This document shows positions 2-7,924 of a stretch of DNA of 40,106 bases, in pieces. Made by a program: the position numbers and the translations under genes. Numbering within the stretch: the first letter of the stretch is position 1; each line of letters starts with the position of its first letter. The DNA lies in assembly GCA_030432925.1 (NCBI GenBank), contig JAUILT010000018.1:1-40106 (forward strand), read 5' to 3'. This DNA is from Bdellovibrionia bacterium (GTDB taxonomy: Bacteria; Bdellovibrionota; Bdellovibrionia; Bdellovibrionales; UBA1609). The notes under the pieces were generated by a model. That model was not told where the DNA came from. It did no database searches and saw nothing but the letters and a program-made list of their open reading frames with translations.

Positions 2-634
2 TCTGATGATGTTCGAGCTCAGTTTCAGAGTGATTTTCAGAAAAAAGACCTTAGAGAGGTTTTAGGTCATTTAGATGATGTGGCCAAAGAGGTTGCTAAA
101 AAGCAGGAAAAACTATTGGCGCCAGTGAAATTTCATACAAATGGTATTCGAGTTTTTCCAGACCGTTACAAGGATTTTATTTCCAGTCTTGTACATGCTT
201 TTAGAAATGCTGTGGATCATGGTTTGGAGTCTCCAGAGGATCGTATAGCAAAAAATAAGCCGGAAGCTGGAACTATTGAGGTCTATGCGACTCAAGTGTA
301 TAACAACGGAAGTCAGAAAATTCAGATAGTAATTCAGGATGATGGTCGAGGTATCGATCCTGAGAAAATTCGCAGTAAACTCCAAGAAAGTCAGATCAGT
401 ACTGATGGTATGGAGGATGGTGAGGTCCTGCAGCAAATTTTTTCTCCAGGATTTACTAGCCGTAGTGAAGTTTCCGAGTTTTCTGGACGAGGTGTTGGTA
501 TGGACGCGATTAAAACTGAGGTGAATAAGTTAAAGGGGTCTATTTTTGTAGAGTCCAAAATCAATGAGGGAACGAAAATTACCATTGAGATTCCGGACGA
601 ATCAGGTAAAAATATCTATGCAGTATCCGCCTAA
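2..634 (+). CDS. CheA-like histidine kinase, C-terminal part (gene cut by window start)
   Basis: The reading frame is open from the first bases of the window, so this is the 3' end of a longer gene. The GTG at 80 is probably not the true start. About 210 residues are visible. They form a HATPase_c domain of the CheA type: an N box HAFRNAVDHGLE (around 196-231), a G1 box DDGRGID (around 340-360) and a G2 box GRGVGMD (around 487-507). The protein ends directly after the ATPase fold, so there is no C-terminal CheW-like domain as in classical CheA. The expected role is ATP-dependent phosphorylation of a histidine on an upstream Hpt domain, then transfer to a receiver. The next gene, 8 bp downstream, is a single-domain receiver and the likely partner. 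The Hpt and dimerisation regions lie outside the window, so the exact architecture is unknown. Confidence 0.85.
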   Translation, partial: SDDVRAQFQSDFQKKDLREVLGHLDDVAKEVAKKQEKLLAPVKFHTNGIRVFPDRYKDFISSLVHAFRNAVDHGLESPEDRIAKNKPEAGTIEVYATQVYNNGSQKIQIVIQDDGRGIDPEKIRSKLQESQISTDGMEDGEVLQQIFSPGFTSRSEVSEFSGRGVGMDAIKTEVNKLKGSIFVESKINEGTKITIEIPDESGKNIYAVSA

Positions 635-642
635 GGGGAGAT

Positions 643-1047
643 ATGTTTCCAAAAGAGACTCACATTCTTGTTGTTGATGACTCCCTTAATATCAGGCGGC
701 TTGTTGTGGACAGCCTTAATCGTATGGGTTTTACCAAAATAACAGCCGCAGAAGATGCTGTGGAAGCGTTCAATAAACTCAACTCAGCTGCAGAGTCAGA
801 TAAGCCTGTTCAGTTGGTTCTTTCAGACCTTAATATGCCTGGCCCCAGTGGATTGGATTTTTTAAAACAGGTGCGCTCCAACGACTCTTACCAGACATTA
901 CCCTTTATATTGGTGACTACAGAGAGCGAAAAGGGAGCTGTCATTGAAGCGGCTATGGCTGGTGTCAGCGGTTATATTGTCAAGCCTTTTAATATTGAGA
1001 CGTTGACCAAGCGTCTTAAAGAGGCTTGGGCTAAGCATAATTCCTAA
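643..1047 (+). CDS. CheY-like single-domain response regulator
   Basis: This 134-residue protein is one receiver domain with no output domain. Visible conserved positions are the acidic pair D12-D13, the phosphoacceptor D62 (in LSDLNMP), T92/T93 on beta-4, and K114 in the YIVKPF motif. The ATG follows a GGGGAG ribosome binding site and lies 8 bp after the kinase stop, so the two are almost certainly co-transcribed and probably form a phosphotransfer pair. As a lone receiver it may bind a target such as a motor switch or act as a phosphate shuttle. Nothing in the sequence decides between these. Confidence 0.93.
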   Translation: MFPKETHILVVDDSLNIRRLVVDSLNRMGFTKITAAEDAVEAFNKLNSAAESDKPVQLVLSDLNMPGPSGLDFLKQVRSNDSYQTLPFILVTTESEKGAVIEAAMAGVSGYIVKPFNIETLTKRLKEAWAKHNS

Positions 1048-1142: not shown

Positions 1143-3086
1143 ATGAAAAAAAAGGACATTAACATACTTGTCATTGATGACGATGCCTCGGTTCGGAAGG
1201 TATTGAGCGAAGCCATAAAAAAATTTGGTTACACGGCACTGGCTGTTGCGAATAAAGATGAGGCGATGTCTTTAATGAGAATCAAAACAGTCCATGCTGC
1301 AGTTATTGACTGTATGTTGCCTAAAATGAATGGCGTTGATCTTTCGTTAAAGTTACGTGAAGGACGGTTTGCTCAAAACCCTATTATTCTTATTAGTGGA
1401 ATTTTTAAAGATAGGTCATTTGCCTCCGACGCGACAAGAAAAACTAAAGCTGTTGAATTTCTTTTTAAACCTCTGGACCTTGAGGAATTGAAAGGTGTTC
1501 TTGATGAACACCTTTCTCATCTATGTACTGAGACAGTAATTCCACTTCATACCTTGATGTCGAAGTCTTTTGATTCTTCAAGAGAGAGAAGAAAAGCAAT
1601 AGAAGCGCTTGAAGAGATTAGTGGGTTCGACTTGCCTTTTGTGCTCAGTGTATTGATGGATGCCAAAGTTGGAGGGCATTTAAATATGGTGAACAAAGCG
1701 GGTGAAATTTACGGAATTTCTTTAGTCAAGGGAAAGATCACTGGATTAGATAGCCCTGAAACAATCTCTACGGTCACCTTAACTCTTCTTCAGAAGCAAT
1801 TAATTACCCCAGAGGATATTCAAGACTTAGGAGAAAAGATAAGTCGAGGAGACATTCTTAAACACCTTCTTCAAGAGGGACTTATTAGCCCTCATGTTGT
1901 GCTTATGGTAAAGAACCAGCAGATTTTGCAAGACCTCAATCGTTTGATTACCGGTGAGGTGATTCAATTTAACTTTGCGCAGGAGAGAATCAAAGAAGAT
2001 ATTCCAGGTGTTGACTTGGATATGCTAGTTCCACACTTTCAAACAGCGATTAAGGACAAAATCACTTTGAAATACCTAATTGAGTTCTATGATGGGTGGG
2101 GTGAGTACCCTATTATGGAAGGGCCACAGTACTCTGACTCTGACAGCATGAAAAGCTATGAACTTATTAAGACAGCGACGGGTGTGACAGCGTTAGCCCA
2201 CGAGAGAGCGACTATTAATGAATTAATAGAGTCAGAAAGGTTTAATAAAAAAGACTTATTAAGGGCGCTGCATCTTTTGGCTCTAAAGAGAGTGATCATT
2301 TTCGATACAGTACAGCGAGGAAGCCAAAAGGATGACCTTAAAGGTCGATTTGAACACATGCTGAGAGGTATTAAGGATAAGAACCCCATCGAGATTTTTA
2401 TATACTTTGGTGCAACTTCAGAGTGTAAAAAAATTGAGGTGGAAAAGATTTATAAGGAGTTTGCCCGTAATAACCACCCAGATAAACTGCCTCCGAATGT
2501 CAGTGATGATGTGCGAAAGACGGCCAATAAAGTATTTTCTCTTGTTAGCGAGGCCCACGACACTTTGACTCACTCTGAAAAGCGTGAGAAATGGGAGACA
2601 TCCATCAAGCAGAAAGAGGTTCATCAACAGATTCAAGCTGAGGAGATTGCCGATAAAGCTATCGAGTTTCTCAGAAAAGGTCGGTATATGGACTCTTACA
2701 AGCTATCTAAAGAAGCTTATGAGCTATTTCCCGGTATGAATGTTATGCTTTATTACTCTTGGGCTCAGTTGAAAGCTTTTCCAAGCATGGACAAAAAAGC
2801 TTTGATGGATGTTGCTGAGCGCATGAATACGATTCCTCATGAAGATCGTCGTGTGGCACTTTACCAGTTTGTTGCAGGGCTACTCAAAAAAGCTCAAGGT
2901 GATCTTATTGGTGCCAGTGCGTGCTTTGACAAGTCTCTTAACTACGATGTGGACTTTCTGGATGCTCGTAGGGAATTGGTGGCTCTAACCCGAAATAAAG
3001 AAACATCTTCAACGTCCTTCACAGCAAAAGATCTGCTTCATGCAGATTTAGGGCAAGTGATAGGCGGCTTATTCAAAAAAAAGTAA
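1143..3086 (+). CDS. Response regulator fused to PATAN (DUF4388), J-domain and TPR-like region
   Basis: A 647-residue multidomain protein. Residues 5-125 are a receiver: acidic triad D12-D14, phosphoacceptor D56 in VIDCMLP, conserved K109 in LFKP. Residues about 160-260 resemble a PATAN/DUF4388 domain (pattern LPFVLSVLMDAKVGGHL, then a G-x-I turn), a module common in delta-type signalling proteins. Residues about 415-487 are a J-domain with the HPD signature at 445-447 followed by a helix ending SEKREKWE. Residues about 500-625 are helical and TPR-like. It carries no DNA-binding or enzymatic output domain. The J-domain suggests it may recruit or stimulate a DnaK-type chaperone when phosphorylated, which is inference. 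It starts 95 bp after the CheY gene on the same strand. The domain calls are by pattern, and the PATAN assignment is less certain than the receiver and J-domain. Confidence 0.85.
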   Translation: MKKKDINILVIDDDASVRKVLSEAIKKFGYTALAVANKDEAMSLMRIKTVHAAVIDCMLPKMNGVDLSLKLREGRFAQNPIILISGIFKDRSFASDATRKTKAVEFLFKPLDLEELKGVLDEHLSHLCTETVIPLHTLMSKSFDSSRERRKAIEALEEISGFDLPFVLSVLMDAKVGGHLNMVNKAGEIYGISLVKGKITGLDSPETISTVTLTLLQKQLITPEDIQDLGEKISRGDILKHLLQEGLISPHVVLMVKNQQILQDLNRLITGEVIQFNFAQERIKEDIPGVDLDMLVPHFQTAIKDKITLKYLIEFYDGWGEYPIMEGPQYSDSDSMKSYELIKTATGVTALAHERATINELIESERFNKKDLLRALHLLALKRVIIFDTVQRGSQKDDLKGRFEHMLRGIKDKNPIEIFIYFGATSECKKIEVEKIYKEFARNNHPDKLPPNVSDDVRKTANKVFSLVSEAHDTLTHSEKREKWETSIKQKEVHQQIQAEEIADKAIEFLRKGRYMDSYKLSKEAYELFPGMNVMLYYSWAQLKAFPSMDKKALMDVAERMNTIPHEDRRVALYQFVAGLLKKAQGDLIGASACFDKSLNYDVDFLDARRELVALTRNKETSSTSFTAKDLLHADLGQVIGGLFKKK

Positions 3087-3179: not shown

Positions 3180-4148
3180 ATGATCGTTGTGACGGGTGCC
3201 AATGGATTTATTGGAAGCGCCATGGTCTGGGAGCTGAATCAGGCTGGGGTAAAAGAGAGTATTGTTTGCGATATCATCACCCCTCAAGAGCGACCAGGCC
3301 CTCTTGGAGGCAGAGACTATAAAAAGTTTTTACATAGAGATGAGCTCTTGGACTTCTTGCGGAGTACAAAGGAAAAAGTTTCTGTGATCTATCATATGGG
3401 TGCAAGCTCCTCTACAACGGTGACAGACGAAGAGTTTCTGCGAGTGAATAATACAGAGTACACTCAACAACTTTTTGAGTGGTGTCGTGATAATAATGCA
3501 ATATTTATTTATGCCAGTAGTGCCTCTGTTTATGGGGATGGCAGTCATGGCTTTGATGATAAGGTCAAAACAACCTCATACACACCTATGCATGCTTACG
3601 GCTGGTCAAAAGCCAATTTTGATATCTGGGCGGAAAAGCAAAAGGAGACTTTAAACAAATGGTATGGCCTTCGTTTTTTCAATGTGTATGGCCCCAATGA
3701 GTACCATAAAGGCAGTATGTTAAGTGTTCCTTACAAGGCCCAAAAGCAAATTGAGGAAAAGGGGCGGGTGAAGTTATTTAAGTCATATCATCCTGAGTAC
3801 AATGATGGCGAACAGAAGAGAGATTTTATTTATGTCAAAGATATCACCCGATGGATGTTGGAATTGGCCAATGCCCCTAAGGCTCCCAGTGGCATCTATA
3901 ATATGGGGTTTGGGAGGGCGCGTACTTGGAAGGATCTGGTTCATTCCGCTTTTCACGCCAATGATAGAGAGATGGACATAGAGTGGATTGAAATGCCGGA
4001 GACTCTTAAAAATCAATACCAGTACCTGACAGAGGCAGATATGGGCAAGTGGTTAAAGGCAGGTCTCTCAACTCCTCAGTGGAGTTTGGAATCTGGAATT
4101 GAGGATTATCTTAGAAGCTACCTTATCGGTGGAGACAGTTACCTGTAA
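3180..4148 (+). CDS. hldD: ADP-L-glycero-D-manno-heptose 6-epimerase
   Basis: An extended SDR enzyme of 322 residues that converts ADP-D-glycero-D-manno-heptose to the L-glycero epimer, the precursor of inner-core LPS heptose. The N-terminus MIVVTGANGFIGSAM carries the NAD(P)-binding GxxGxxG (residues 6-12). The catalytic region shows SSASVYG (113-119) and YGWSK (Y140, K144). The length fits HldD (about 310 in E. coli). I chose the ATG at 3180 because it follows a strong AAAGGAG; the in-frame ATG at 3138 would add residues that do not belong to the fold. The gene lies 16 bp upstream of the hydroxylase gene and probably shares its transcript. Other sugar-nucleotide epimerases are possible, but the motif context fits HldD best. 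Confidence 0.88.
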   Translation: MIVVTGANGFIGSAMVWELNQAGVKESIVCDIITPQERPGPLGGRDYKKFLHRDELLDFLRSTKEKVSVIYHMGASSSTTVTDEEFLRVNNTEYTQQLFEWCRDNNAIFIYASSASVYGDGSHGFDDKVKTTSYTPMHAYGWSKANFDIWAEKQKETLNKWYGLRFFNVYGPNEYHKGSMLSVPYKAQKQIEEKGRVKLFKSYHPEYNDGEQKRDFIYVKDITRWMLELANAPKAPSGIYNMGFGRARTWKDLVHSAFHANDREMDIEWIEMPETLKNQYQYLTEADMGKWLKAGLSTPQWSLESGIEDYLRSYLIGGDSYL

Positions 4149-4164
4149 AAAGGAAGAGGGGTCT

Positions 4165-5901
4165 ATGTACACAATTATTGAAAACTTACCGGCTCATCTC
4201 AGAAAATATGTGGTGGAGCAAACTTATGAAAAGTACACCTCAGAAGACCAAGCTGTCTGGCGTTATATTATGCTGCAGTTGAAAAGCTTTTTATCTCAAC
4301 ATGCTCATGACTGTTACTTAGAAGGACTTGAGAAGACGGGAATTACCACCGGTCGCATCCCTCGGATTGAAGATATTAACCAAAAGCTGGCTGTATTTGG
4401 CTGGGGAGCCGTTCCTGTAAGTGGTTTTATACCTCCAGCGGCATTTATGGAGTTTCAGTCACTGGGAGTTCTGCCGATTGCCTCTGATATGCGCTCCATA
4501 GATCATATTCTCTACACTCCGGCTCCTGATATTGTTCATGAGGCGGCAGGGCATGCCCCGATTCTGATTCACTCTGAGTTTGCTACTTACCTAAAAAAGT
4601 ATGCTGAAATTGCTAGAAAAGCCATAATATCAAAAGAAGACATGGACCAATATGAGGCGATTCGTGTACTCAGTGACGTCAAAGAAAATCCCGACAGTAC
4701 GCCAGAGGAAATTGCAAGTGCCGAGCAGCGGCTGAGTGAGGTCAGTGCAGCGATAACAGAAGTTTCTGAGGCTGGATGGTTATCTAGAATGAATTGGTGG
4801 ACAGCAGAATATGGCCTTATTGGCTCATTGGAAGCGCCAAAGATTTTTGGTGCGGGTTTGCTCTCTTCAGTGGGAGAGTCTCGAGAGTGTTTGAGCGACA
4901 CAGTCAAAAAAATTCCGCTTACAGTAGATTGCGTTAATACAGGGTATGATATTACAGAGCCTCAACCTCAATTATTTGTGACACCTGACTTTGAACACCT
5001 TCATTCAGTTTTAGACGACTTGGCTGACATGTTAGCCTTTAGAAAAGGTGGCTCCTATGGATTAGAAAAGGCAAAGTCAGCAAGGACTATCAACTCAGTG
5101 GAATTAGAGACAGGGCTTCAGGTTTCGGGAGTTCTAGAAAGGTATGACTTGAGTGAGAATGGTCAGCCTGTCTTTTTTAAAATGAGTGGGCCGACACAGC
5201 TTTCAGCCGGTGGCCGACAACTGCCAGGGCATGGTCCAGAGTATCACTCACATGGTTACTCCAGTCCGCTGGGCTCTTTCAATGGTTGGAATGGAGATAT
5301 AAAAACATTGAACTTGAAAAGCTTGGGAGTGTCTCAAGGAGAAACCGTCCGCTTAACATTTGACAGTGGAATTCTTGTACACGGAAAGGTCGAGAGTATC
5401 ACCGAGTTCAATGGCACCCCTCTTATTATTCAGTTCAGTGCCTGTACGGTTCAAAAAGGTGACGACACTCTATTTGCTCCTGACTGGGGACTTTTTGATA
5501 TGGCTCTTGGAACAAAGGTGTCATCCGTTTTTGGAGGGGCTGCAGATCGCACTCAGTTTGAAAATACTGAAGATTTTGTCGCAGCTAAAGTACCTCTGCG
5601 TATTTTCAGTGAGTCTGACAGGAGTCGTTTTGAAATATTTGATGAGATTCGAAAAGCCAGAGAAAATCAGCAACTGACTTCTGATATTATCCAGCAGTTG
5701 ATTGACAGGTGGAGTAACTCTTCCGATAAAAACTGGCTGGTGGGACTTGAAATTGTAGAGCTTGCTAAGATTGCTGGTTACTCTCAAGATCTCACGGAAG
5801 AAATTACCCAAGCTGTAGAGTCTTTATACGACAAGCAGACACTCCAACATTATCAAGGGGGCCTGCAGCTCTTAAATGAGACTGATACAAACAATGAGTA
5901 G
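4165..5901 (+). CDS. Aromatic amino acid hydroxylase (phenylalanine 4-monooxygenase family), long form
   Basis: 578 residues. The N-terminal half is a tetrahydropterin-dependent aromatic amino acid hydroxylase: PDIVHEAAGHAPIL supplies the iron ligands H125 and H130, WWTAEYG supplies the third ligand E215, and GAGLLSSVGES (229-239) matches the conserved segment after it. The usual reaction is Phe to Tyr with O2 and a pterin. The enzyme is about twice the size of the compact proteobacterial PhhA. Residues about 310-578 are an extra C-terminal region I cannot assign, rich in Gly/Ser and beta-type sequence (around 350-420), then helical. Long forms of this family are known from other bacteria. 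No pterin recycling gene (PCD/DHPR) is nearby. The ATG at 4165 follows GGAAGAGGGG; the upstream in-frame codon at 4099 lies inside hldD. Substrate (Phe, Tyr or Trp) cannot be decided from sequence. Confidence 0.9.
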   Translation: MYTIIENLPAHLRKYVVEQTYEKYTSEDQAVWRYIMLQLKSFLSQHAHDCYLEGLEKTGITTGRIPRIEDINQKLAVFGWGAVPVSGFIPPAAFMEFQSLGVLPIASDMRSIDHILYTPAPDIVHEAAGHAPILIHSEFATYLKKYAEIARKAIISKEDMDQYEAIRVLSDVKENPDSTPEEIASAEQRLSEVSAAITEVSEAGWLSRMNWWTAEYGLIGSLEAPKIFGAGLLSSVGESRECLSDTVKKIPLTVDCVNTGYDITEPQPQLFVTPDFEHLHSVLDDLADMLAFRKGGSYGLEKAKSARTINSVELETGLQVSGVLERYDLSENGQPVFFKMSGPTQLSAGGRQLPGHGPEYHSHGYSSPLGSFNGWNGDIKTLNLKSLGVSQGETVRLTFDSGILVHGKVESITEFNGTPLIIQFSACTVQKGDDTLFAPDWGLFDMALGTKVSSVFGGAADRTQFENTEDFVAAKVPLRIFSESDRSRFEIFDEIRKARENQQLTSDIIQQLIDRWSNSSDKNWLVGLEIVELAKIAGYSQDLTEEITQAVESLYDKQTLQHYQGGLQLLNETDTNNE

Positions 5902-5906
5902 GAGAG

Positions 5907-7769
5907 TTAGATGTCCTCCTTGTAGCCATCTACGAGCGTAAGAAACACCCGTCCTAACTTTTTTTGCTTCAGAGAATGATGTAATTTTTTATACTCATCT
6001 GGATCAATCAGCTCGGGACGCATGAATTGCGAGTGAATAAAATCATCCATTAACTTCTGAAGATCTTTGTCAGAGATGCCCCTCTCTCTACTTTTCATGA
6101 TTTCATTGACAATATTAATTAAGGCATTGCCGGTGACCCGATCTTCTCGATTGATCACTTGAGAGCGTTTCATCAGGTTCTTTGTAATACTTGTAACATC
6201 CTCTAGAGAGTGCCAGTTGTTGATGAGCTGTACGTACTGTTTTTGTAGTTCATGTATTCGCTCTTTCAAGCGTTGACCCATGTGTGCATCTCGAGAGGGA
6301 GCTTCTTGACTGATGATCCAGCGAAACACCTCACGTTCTTTGAGTAGAGGGACGTTTTTGTCTTTATTCTCCCATAGGTGTCTTGGGTACTCTCTTAAAA
6401 AGCTTCTCATGTTCAAAATAGCCGGGCGATTAACGCCATCGGCAACTTTGGCCAGCTTATTTTTAGTTTTTAACTTTTCAAGGTGAGTGAAGTTGGAGCA
6501 GAAGGCTTCGACGTCGTGCTCATGCCGATCGAGTAAAAACTCTCGTTGTTTTTTAGTGAACCCGACCTGGTAGAGTAGATGATCTTTCATATAATAGGCA
6601 TAATACTTTTCAAACTTGTTAAGAATAGGATCCCCTTTAAAGCTAGCTAGGGGTTTTTTCTCTCGGGTTTTCAAAAAATCTACCAGCTGGGCAAAAACTT
6701 GAACAGTTAGCTTTGCTTTGGTCTTTTGCTCATTGAGATTTGTGGAGAAGCGATCATCGTCATCATAGCGATATTGATCATGTCGGAGTCCAAACTGACG
6801 TACGCTCCCATAGTCAATGATTCCAGCTGTGGCCAAAACATTGTCACCATCCCAGTCCAGCCAGGCAAAAATGTATTCCCTCTCAAGTTGAGCGGCAAAT
6901 TGGGCAAAGCTTTCGCAAATTTCATTCAACATCATGCGGTAACGACTTTTGTAACGAACACTGAACTCCCATTCGCCATTACTGTGTTGGCGATCTATTA
7001 AAAAGTCCGTGGCTTTTTTAAGAGATTGATGGTCTTCTTGCTTTAAATACATAAAAAGGTGAGCGGGACGAAAAAGGTTTTTTTCAGCTCGAACTCCGAT
7101 AGCACATTTGTTGCCGATGTCAATAATAGCTAACATTCGCTCCGTGCGGATGGAGTTGTGATGCATGATCTCAGACATGATCGCTGATCCGTAAAGTTCA
7201 TCAATTTCAGCAAGTCCACAACCATACCCAAAGTCAGTGTTGCCGGACTCCAGATAGGTTCCTGCTTGTACGGCTCCCGGAGCCAATGTTGTGACTCCAG
7301 TGCCTCGACTGCTGACGTCCCACGTAATGCCTTTGTGGCAAACTGTCCCATTCCACACACATCGACCATCTCCAGAGGTTTTTCCGGTTTTGTCTGCGTG
7401 TTGCAGTTGAAGGTATCTGGTGGCCATATATTTTTTATGTTTGATGGTTTTAGGAGGGTAGATAATATTGTTTTCTTGATCAAACTCATTGATGATTCGG
7501 AGGCAAAATGTCTTTAGCAATTTTTGGCTGAGTTTTTTGGTCATTTTGGAGGGATGATTTTGGGGAAGGAGCCCCATTTCACGAGCCAGGTCAAAGTTAA
7601 ACCAGGCAACTTTCCCACCAGAGAGTTCTCTTACGGGGTAAAGAAGGCAGTTTTCAGGCATCTTTGACTGCCAGGGGTGTGACCCATTCAACGTATCAAA
7701 GCGAGAGTACTGATTCTCGCGAGTTCGTGCTCCTGATGGGTCAGGGCGACGCGCTCTTTGTTGTCCCAT
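5907..7769 (-). CDS. Divergent SelO/YdiU-like protein (putative pseudokinase AMPylator)
   Basis: About 620 residues with features resembling the SelO/YdiU family, which transfers AMP from ATP to protein hydroxyl groups. Matching elements, numbered from the start at 7769, are GDGR (133-136), RGTG (155-158), a helix resembling the SelO segment before its catalytic site (SAIMSEIMHHNSIRTERML), and a DWDGDN...DYGS block (305-322) corresponding to the metal-binding Asn and Asp of SelO. It is longer than E. coli YdiU (478) and diverges strongly outside these blocks, so the family call is moderate. I prefer the ATG at 7769, preceded by GGAAAGG at good spacing. An in-frame ATG at 7793 adds eight residues but has its SD-like bases too close. 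It is convergent with the hydroxylase (5 bp between stops) and divergent from tldD. Confidence 0.6.
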   Translation of the reverse strand: MGQQRARRPDPSGARTRENQYSRFDTLNGSHPWQSKMPENCLLYPVRELSGGKVAWFNFDLAREMGLLPQNHPSKMTKKLSQKLLKTFCLRIINEFDQENNIIYPPKTIKHKKYMATRYLQLQHADKTGKTSGDGRCVWNGTVCHKGITWDVSSRGTGVTTLAPGAVQAGTYLESGNTDFGYGCGLAEIDELYGSAIMSEIMHHNSIRTERMLAIIDIGNKCAIGVRAEKNLFRPAHLFMYLKQEDHQSLKKATDFLIDRQHSNGEWEFSVRYKSRYRMMLNEICESFAQFAAQLEREYIFAWLDWDGDNVLATAGIIDYGSVRQFGLRHDQYRYDDDDRFSTNLNEQKTKAKLTVQVFAQLVDFLKTREKKPLASFKGDPILNKFEKYYAYYMKDHLLYQVGFTKKQREFLLDRHEHDVEAFCSNFTHLEKLKTKNKLAKVADGVNRPAILNMRSFLREYPRHLWENKDKNVPLLKEREVFRWIISQEAPSRDAHMGQRLKERIHELQKQYVQLINNWHSLEDVTSITKNLMKRSQVINREDRVTGNALINIVNEIMKSRERGISDKDLQKLMDDFIHSQFMRPELIDPDEYKKLHHSLKQKKLGRVFLTLVDGYKEDI

Positions 7770-7924
7770 TCTTAGACCTTTCCGATGATTCATTCACCTG
7801 GAAATCAGTTCTAAACCTTATCGGACAGTACCTATAATTGGTTGAGAAGCTCGTGGAACATTCTTTGACCTAAGTCAGGTCCTCAGGTAGACAATGATCT
7901 AGAACTTTTGCGGAGAAGTTATAT

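Follow-up and report, generated by a model that had tools for sequence, protein, structure and literature searches.

The window, a stretch of 40,106 nucleotides covering positions 1 to 40,106 of contig JAUILT010000018.1 of a Bdellovibrionia bacterium (assembly GCA_030432925.1), opens with three genes on the forward strand. The third encodes a protein in which a receiver domain (REC) is joined to a J-domain in a single chain. The features at this locus are:

2 to 634, plus strand: last 210 residues (C-terminal part) of a CheA-like PAS-Hpt-HATPase kinase that the contig edge truncates (HATPase_c, E = 1.9e-17).
643 to 1047, plus strand: CheY-like stand-alone receiver (PF00072, E = 4.2e-24; NCBIfam CheY, E = 4.5e-30, below the cut-off of that model).
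1143 to 3086, plus strand: REC - DUF4388/PATAN-like - J-domain - TPR-like protein, A-type, 647 residues with an ATG start.
1155 to 1517, plus strand: receiver domain, about residues 5-125 (PF00072, E = 3.1e-17, residues 8-118).
1308 to 1310, plus strand: D56, the predicted phosphoacceptor aspartate, invariant in 31 of 31 aligned sequences.
1617 to 1991, plus strand: DUF4388/PATAN-like region, residues 159-283, below the Pfam cut-off in this protein.
2382 to 2603, plus strand: J-domain, about residues 414-487 (PF00226, E = 5.5e-7; bit score 30.0, cut-off 27.8).
2475 to 2483, plus strand: HPD tripeptide, residues 445-447, read in the sequence.
2625 to 3002, plus strand: C-terminal helical, TPR-like region, about residues 495-620 (TPR_2 in 8 of 16 homologues of alignment A1).
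3024 to 3083, plus strand: C-terminal tail, about residues 628-647 (mean column conservation given below).

An earlier sequence-only reading had placed the reading frame at exactly these coordinates. The four-part architecture that it proposed is right for the family, although in the window's own member the PATAN label is weak and the TPR label lacks a match. DUF4388, which we take to be the Pfam model for PATAN-like domains, reaches 13.8 bits in the window protein (E = 0.061) against a cut-off of 25, and Pfam finds no TPR match there. When the 16 selected homologues of alignment A1 were scanned one by one with Pfam at E<=0.01, the receiver and the DnaJ domain were found in 16/16, DUF4388 in 10/16 (best E = 1.4e-9) and TPR_2 in the eight listed above. 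Full-length orthologues of the window protein are present in two genomes of its genus, at 65 and 50% identity, and more distant ones were found across the order.

The J-domain match spans residues 426-484 of the window protein, and the HPD tripeptide is present in 28 of the 31 sequences of an alignment made of the window protein, 29 sequences from relatives and one paralogue from its own genome. Structure prediction was less informative. Residues 404-519, modelled from the single sequence, gave a low-confidence structure (pLDDT 64, pTM 0.39) whose helix/loop/helix order and helix positions fit a J-domain. The seven best Foldseek rows for this model are six J-domain entries and one mitoribosome assembly-intermediate chain (E 0.11-1.7), and no row reached E<=0.001. 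VIA-align gave a Z of 6.6 to HscB, and we set this list aside as proof of the fold because unrelated helical chains appeared at similar Z. The full-length single-sequence model was unusable (pLDDT 37.6). Hence, it is the sequence evidence, and not the fold model, that carries the J-domain claim.

What would this J-domain work with? The assembly holds one long Hsp70 match, a DnaK-like frame of 641 residues, on a contig that also has a strong DnaJ match. A second match to the HSP70 model, on contig C4, is short and is probably an actin-like protein. In an alignment made by eye, three residues of E. coli DnaJ that we take to be contacts with DnaK, R22, R27 and K48, correspond to E434, E439 and S466 in the window protein.

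The receiver carries the residues expected of this domain: an acidic pair (D12, D13), the phosphoacceptor (D56), a serine (S85) and a lysine (K109). D13, D56, S85 and K109 are invariant in 31/31 aligned sequences, and position 12 is D or E. Outside these sequences, two copies in family f7 (L105 and L153, both of the B-type described below) carry E at the phosphoacceptor position and I instead of one D of the acidic pocket, which could be a constitutively "on" form.

How widespread is this architecture? The sequence-only reading had suggested looking for it in Bdellovibrionota, among others, which we take to be the phylum of our sampled genomes, and there the fusion proved real and common: at E<=1e-25 the family profile has matches in 96 genomes out of a phylum-wide sample of 290. 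Since at most four candidates per genome were scored at this threshold, a diverged second copy in family f8 could be missed. Among 58 genomes searched, the window's own included, a match at E<=0.001 was found in 58/58, in some of them to the receiver only. The homologue set came from this kind of protein search of genomes; a related-locus search of contigs with the single window protein returned only two loci, both of them receiver-only matches. On these alignments and profiles, the REC-J fusion is widespread, old and conserved in the order, and not due to chance. In what follows, f1 is the window's own family and f6, f7, f8, f11, f19 and so on are other families of the sample; f8 is probably Bdellovibrionaceae, the family of Bdellovibrio.

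The copies sit mainly at two kinds of loci, beside the kinase genes as in the window (A-type) or at a second locus described below (B-type). In a tree built by a quick method with midpoint rooting, 40 rows of B-type and reduced-genome copies are split off by a branch with an SH-aLRT support of 98. The f6 and f8 copies, which we call A-type by locus, branch between the f1 A-type and B-type rows (the branch that joins them to the B side has a support of 88), which leaves their descent less certain. The fast-evolving reduced-genome copies L123, L128, L165 and L168 fall outside the B side, even if L168 lies at a B locus.

The CheA-like kinase and the CheY that had been noticed next to the gene are both real by Pfam, and the operon around the A-type gene is conserved. 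In 19 of the 21 A-type genomes of f1, window included, CheY lies immediately upstream of it; the contig of G001 begins too near the gene to judge, and in G027 no CheY was found within 1.8 kb upstream. The CheY copies directly upstream in 18 fetched A-type loci are 50-78% identical to that of the window. Further upstream come genes for the CheA-like kinase (PAS, Hpt, HATPase), a STAS-like protein and a HATPase-like protein. The two full-length kinase homologues that we scanned (L042, L054) have PAS, Hpt and HATPase_c domains and no match to the CheW-like (P5) domain at E<=0.1. In the kinase alignment (A4) the Hpt histidine is nearly invariant and the ATP-site residues are invariant. Several A-type relatives add a HAMP-SpoIIE gene (1.5e-35 in L054; others by tblastn). 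Of 25 A-type genomes, which are those among the 58 from f1 (21), f6 (one) and f8 (three), two g20 genomes being left out, 22 have a strong STAS-like match (E<1e-60) near the A-type gene and on its contig. In the remaining three, the match is near a contig end (G000, G001) or on another contig (G027).

In the window's own genome, the missing part of this operon probably lies at the end of another contig, C138, which carries a HATPase-like gene, a STAS-like gene and the N-terminal 434 residues of a kinase that runs off the end (L132:5958-7259); we infer that C138 and the window contig adjoin, joining the two halves of the kinase. For the two smaller neighbours, the domain matches are sub-threshold. 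Only 2 of 23 STAS-like members match STAS (best E = 0.092), no Pfam family was convincingly matched, and the best PDB rows are Ttg2E, presumably a STAS protein, and three rows labelled anti-sigma factor antagonist (E 0.13-0.35). HATPase_c_2 was found in 2 of 17 HATPase-like members (best E = 0.0035), which have an N-box-like motif, and a comparison with PDB gave nothing useful. The kinase set and the receiver-J gene can be separated: in G043, a SpoIIE-HATPase-STAS-CheA-CheY set lacks the receiver-J gene in the stretch read, and in G021 (g20) the receiver-J gene is flanked by RibD-like and PheH-like genes, the kinase genes being absent there.

Other genes recur around these loci. Genes for an aromatic amino acid hydroxylase, HPPD and homogentisate dioxygenase, likely a tyrosine degradation set, flank the operon (window 4099-5901, L132 1036-3348), and similar genes, identified by eye, precede the A-locus copy in L146. 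The window also encodes, at 5907-7793 on the minus strand, a 628-residue protein with no Pfam match at E<=1e-5, a homologue of which is present in 13 of 17 f1 A-locus stretches. Further STAS-like paralogues (family A2) occur in many genomes, e.g., G000:C123:44927-45391 and G000:C96:45162-45641.

The B-type paralogue has a different neighborhood. It adjoins trxA in 29 of 33 loci examined: 14/18 in f1, and 15/15 in f2, f3, f4, f5, f7, f9, f10 and f11 together, the last of which is in the same class as the window. The four loci without trxA are L141, where the contig ends, L134, L135 and L137. Beyond the pair, contig permitting, there are usually rodA, pbp2 and mreC, and on the other side lptF-like and dprA-like genes (names read from sequence by eye). 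In the B locus of the window's own genome (L059), mreC, pbp2, rodA and trxA were checked by Pfam. Elsewhere in the phylum, f19 has shorter, receiver-less copies beside trxA (4/4) and near rodA (3/4); the one that we scanned, L120, has DnaJ and DUF4388 by Pfam. The wide spread of the B locus suggests that it is the older location. A short second receiver-like gene is often found beside the B-type gene (L059 9098-9898, minus strand, with similar ones in L107, L108, L133, L137, L141 and L157).

If the J-domain matters, its HPD should be kept in orthologues, and this expectation of the sequence-only reading held in most lineages and failed in one. The tripeptide is present in 17/19 A-type copies of f1 that have J sequence, in 16/18 B-type copies of f1, in 15/15 B-type copies of other families in the order and class, in 4/4 receiver-less f19 copies, in 3/3 copies of g20 and in the single f6 copy (1/1). 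Many of the copies keeping it share only 28-43% identity with the window protein. In reduced f1 genomes it is found in 7 of 11 copies (L124, L126, L128, L129, L130, L168, L169). The exception is f8, where it is absent from all A-locus copies (0/14, some nearly identical to each other) and from L098. In the g25 genomes G035 and G026, it was lost in the A-type (L055, L054) and B-type (L144, L145) copies alike, which hints that the J functions of the two paralogues may be coupled. These counts drop copies at contig ends without J (L060, counted via its other half L061, and L161, L162, L164, L166) and L167, a weak match with no J. The 11 reduced-f1 copies, the three of g20, the seven of f8 genus g33 and L098 were counted apart from the main counts. 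The order-level genomes G049, G053 and G057 have the HPD in the 31-sequence alignment and lie outside the 15/15 count, their wider loci being unfetched.

Regional conservation follows the same lines. In 18 A-type copies of f1, mean conservation is 0.54 for the J region, 0.58 for REC, 0.49 for the PATAN region and 0.41 for the linker. In f8, the J region is the least conserved, at 0.44 versus 0.64-0.78 for the other regions, and neither of two f8 copies scanned with Pfam has a DnaJ match. These comparisons indicate constraint on the J-domain in most lineages, and its decay or divergence in f8. The rest of the f8 protein persists: its A-locus copies keep the receiver and a full-length profile match outside J, with SpoIIE and STAS-like genes nearby in 14/14 and the kinase within the stretch in 13/14. 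The pathway can thus run without Hsp70, as its genes persist there without the HPD. Mean column conservation of the C-terminal tail, compared with that of the linker, is 0.54 versus 0.41 in f1 A-type, 0.42 versus 0.39 in f1 B-type, 0.71 versus 0.41 in other B-type and 0.78 versus 0.64 in f8 copies. Within g33 (L112-L118), the receiver is absent in 7/7 copies and J is decayed or deleted, with HPD in 0/7; profile matches persist over the PATAN-like and C-terminal stretches, and a STAS-like gene is present in 6/7 stretches, five of which also have SpoIIE.

How could these parts work together? We propose a phosphorylation-controlled J-protein that aims DnaK at a client bound through its PATAN-like and TPR-like parts, and our confidence in this falls somewhat short of even. 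From the architecture and the linkage we infer the following route. The PAS-containing CheA-like kinase, with its Hpt and HATPase domains, would phosphorylate D56 of the receiver, the stand-alone CheY competing for the phosphate. A client complex would sit on the PATAN-like and TPR-like regions, and phosphorylation of the receiver would expose or position the J-domain, whose HPD would stimulate ATP hydrolysis by DnaK on the client, leading to its remodelling or release. The STAS-like, HATPase-like and, where present, SpoIIE proteins could feed a partner-switch signal into the same node, and the B-type paralogue could do a related job at the cell-elongation locus (MreC/PBP2/RodA). The HPD at both loci, the conservation of J, the linkage to STAS-like and CheY genes, the kinase motifs and the single long Hsp70 all argue for such a J-protein. 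The loss of HPD in f8 and g25, the residues E434, E439 and S466, the G021 copy without kinase genes and the weak structure model argue against it.

This proposal can be made more specific. Hsp70 itself could be the output of a two-component system, with the phosphorylated receiver gating a covalently attached J-domain and DnaK remodelling one client, and the A-type and B-type proteins could share one Hsp70-dependent pathway. This version is possible, and we put it forward tentatively. A shared pathway would explain the joint loss of HPD in g25 and also the situation in f8, where the A copy lacks the HPD and the B copy was mostly not found.

A scaffold without a chaperone output is nearly as likely as the J-protein. 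The phosphorylated receiver would then switch the binding of the PATAN-like and TPR-like parts to a motor or polarity target, the J-domain being an accessory or a fossil and DnaK lying outside the output. This would fit f8, which keeps the rest of the protein without the HPD and has its lowest conservation in the J region. It would also fit Synechocystis, where PATAN regulators bind PilB (PMC10519157, PMC7690835). Type IV pilus motors of the PilT family, found in 57 of the 58 genomes, are consistent with such a target; being nearly universal, they fail as a discriminating partner. However, a fossil would not be expected to keep the HPD at both loci outside f8 and g25 over such a large divergence, nor would one expect the f19 copies without REC to keep it in 4/4 cases, and the PATAN similarity of the window protein is below the Pfam cut-off.

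Of the roles first suggested for this pathway, polarity, motility or predation control, only motility has a correlate here. The presence of FlhA does track the A-type gene in f1 (20/21 A-type genomes versus 3/15 other f1 genomes). Yet this is a correlation only, and it is confounded with genome reduction, since the 12 f1 genomes that lack both the A-type gene and FlhA are all of 2.4 Mb or less. Hence, we do not claim a flagellar role.

We think it unlikely, if worth keeping in mind, that the protein is a constitutive co-chaperone of the envelope or cell-shape machinery, with a receiver that dimerises or regulates loosely and a CheA operon that was acquired later. The B-type is the more widespread of the two, beside trxA and usually near rodA, pbp2 and mreC; the receiver-less copies of f19 lie beside trxA as well; the A-locus copy of G021 persists with no kinase genes around it; and the two f7 copies have E for the phosphoacceptor D. 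Against a housekeeping role, the catalytic set of the receiver is otherwise kept (31/31 at four positions), and the linkage of the A-type gene to kinase, STAS-like and CheY genes is strong. Finally, an artefact of assembly or annotation, or an HPD arisen by chance, for which one could cite the contig edge that cuts the CheA-like gene of the window, is ruled out by the 31-sequence alignment and the profile matches in 96/290 genomes, with the uninterrupted REC-J architecture recurring in many separate genomes.

Several known systems share some features with the J-protein that we propose. In E. coli, DjlA together with DnaK alters signalling through the Rcs phosphorelay, for which the histidine of the J-domain is needed (PMC11709261). 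A J-protein and DnaK can thus act on a phosphorelay, and the likeness to the window protein is a J-domain linking DnaK to a phosphorelay, which here is proposed from sequence. The difference, comparing by description, is that DjlA is a separate membrane protein, with no receiver mentioned in the text consulted (PMC11709261), whereas the J-domain of the window protein is fused to one. In Caulobacter, a DjlA mutant in the HPD histidine loses function but still binds its client (PMC10754441). PixG, PixE, LsiR and PilG of Synechocystis combine a receiver and PATAN like the window family, several of them in chemotaxis-like systems; PATAN is at the N terminus of PixG, PilG and TaxP2, where the window protein has its receiver, and the text consulted mentions neither J-domain nor TPR in the PATAN-CheY regulators, while the window protein has a J-domain and a TPR-like region (PMC10519157, PMC7690835). 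In Myxococcus xanthus, the PilZ-DnaJ and PilZ-DnaK proteins bring together, as here, a signalling domain and a domain of the chaperone system; the signalling domain is PilZ, which relates to c-di-GMP, instead of a receiver (PMC8316039, PMC6211767).

The A-type operon itself resembles the SpoIIE/RsbU - RsbW - STAS partner switch, in that some operons have HAMP-SpoIIE and many have STAS-like and HATPase-like genes. It differs from it in that the STAS and HATPase matches are sub-threshold and the genes are joined to a J-domain receiver, a CheY and a CheA-like kinase. Both J-domains joined to various partners and receivers with various outputs are known, and the REC-PATAN-J combination may be new: our search covered the open-access literature, subscription papers being outside its scope, and no description of a receiver-PATAN-J protein was found there.

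Most known bacterial response regulators have DNA binding, an enzyme or direct protein binding as their output. If the proposed J-protein is real, a chaperone machine would itself be the output of a signal, so that a complex could be taken apart quickly at the post-translational level. In this respect the family is a natural experiment, with paralogues and lineages that have or lack the HPD, the kinase operon or the receiver. Because of this natural variation, the role of each part could be tested by comparing lineages and by single-residue mutants.
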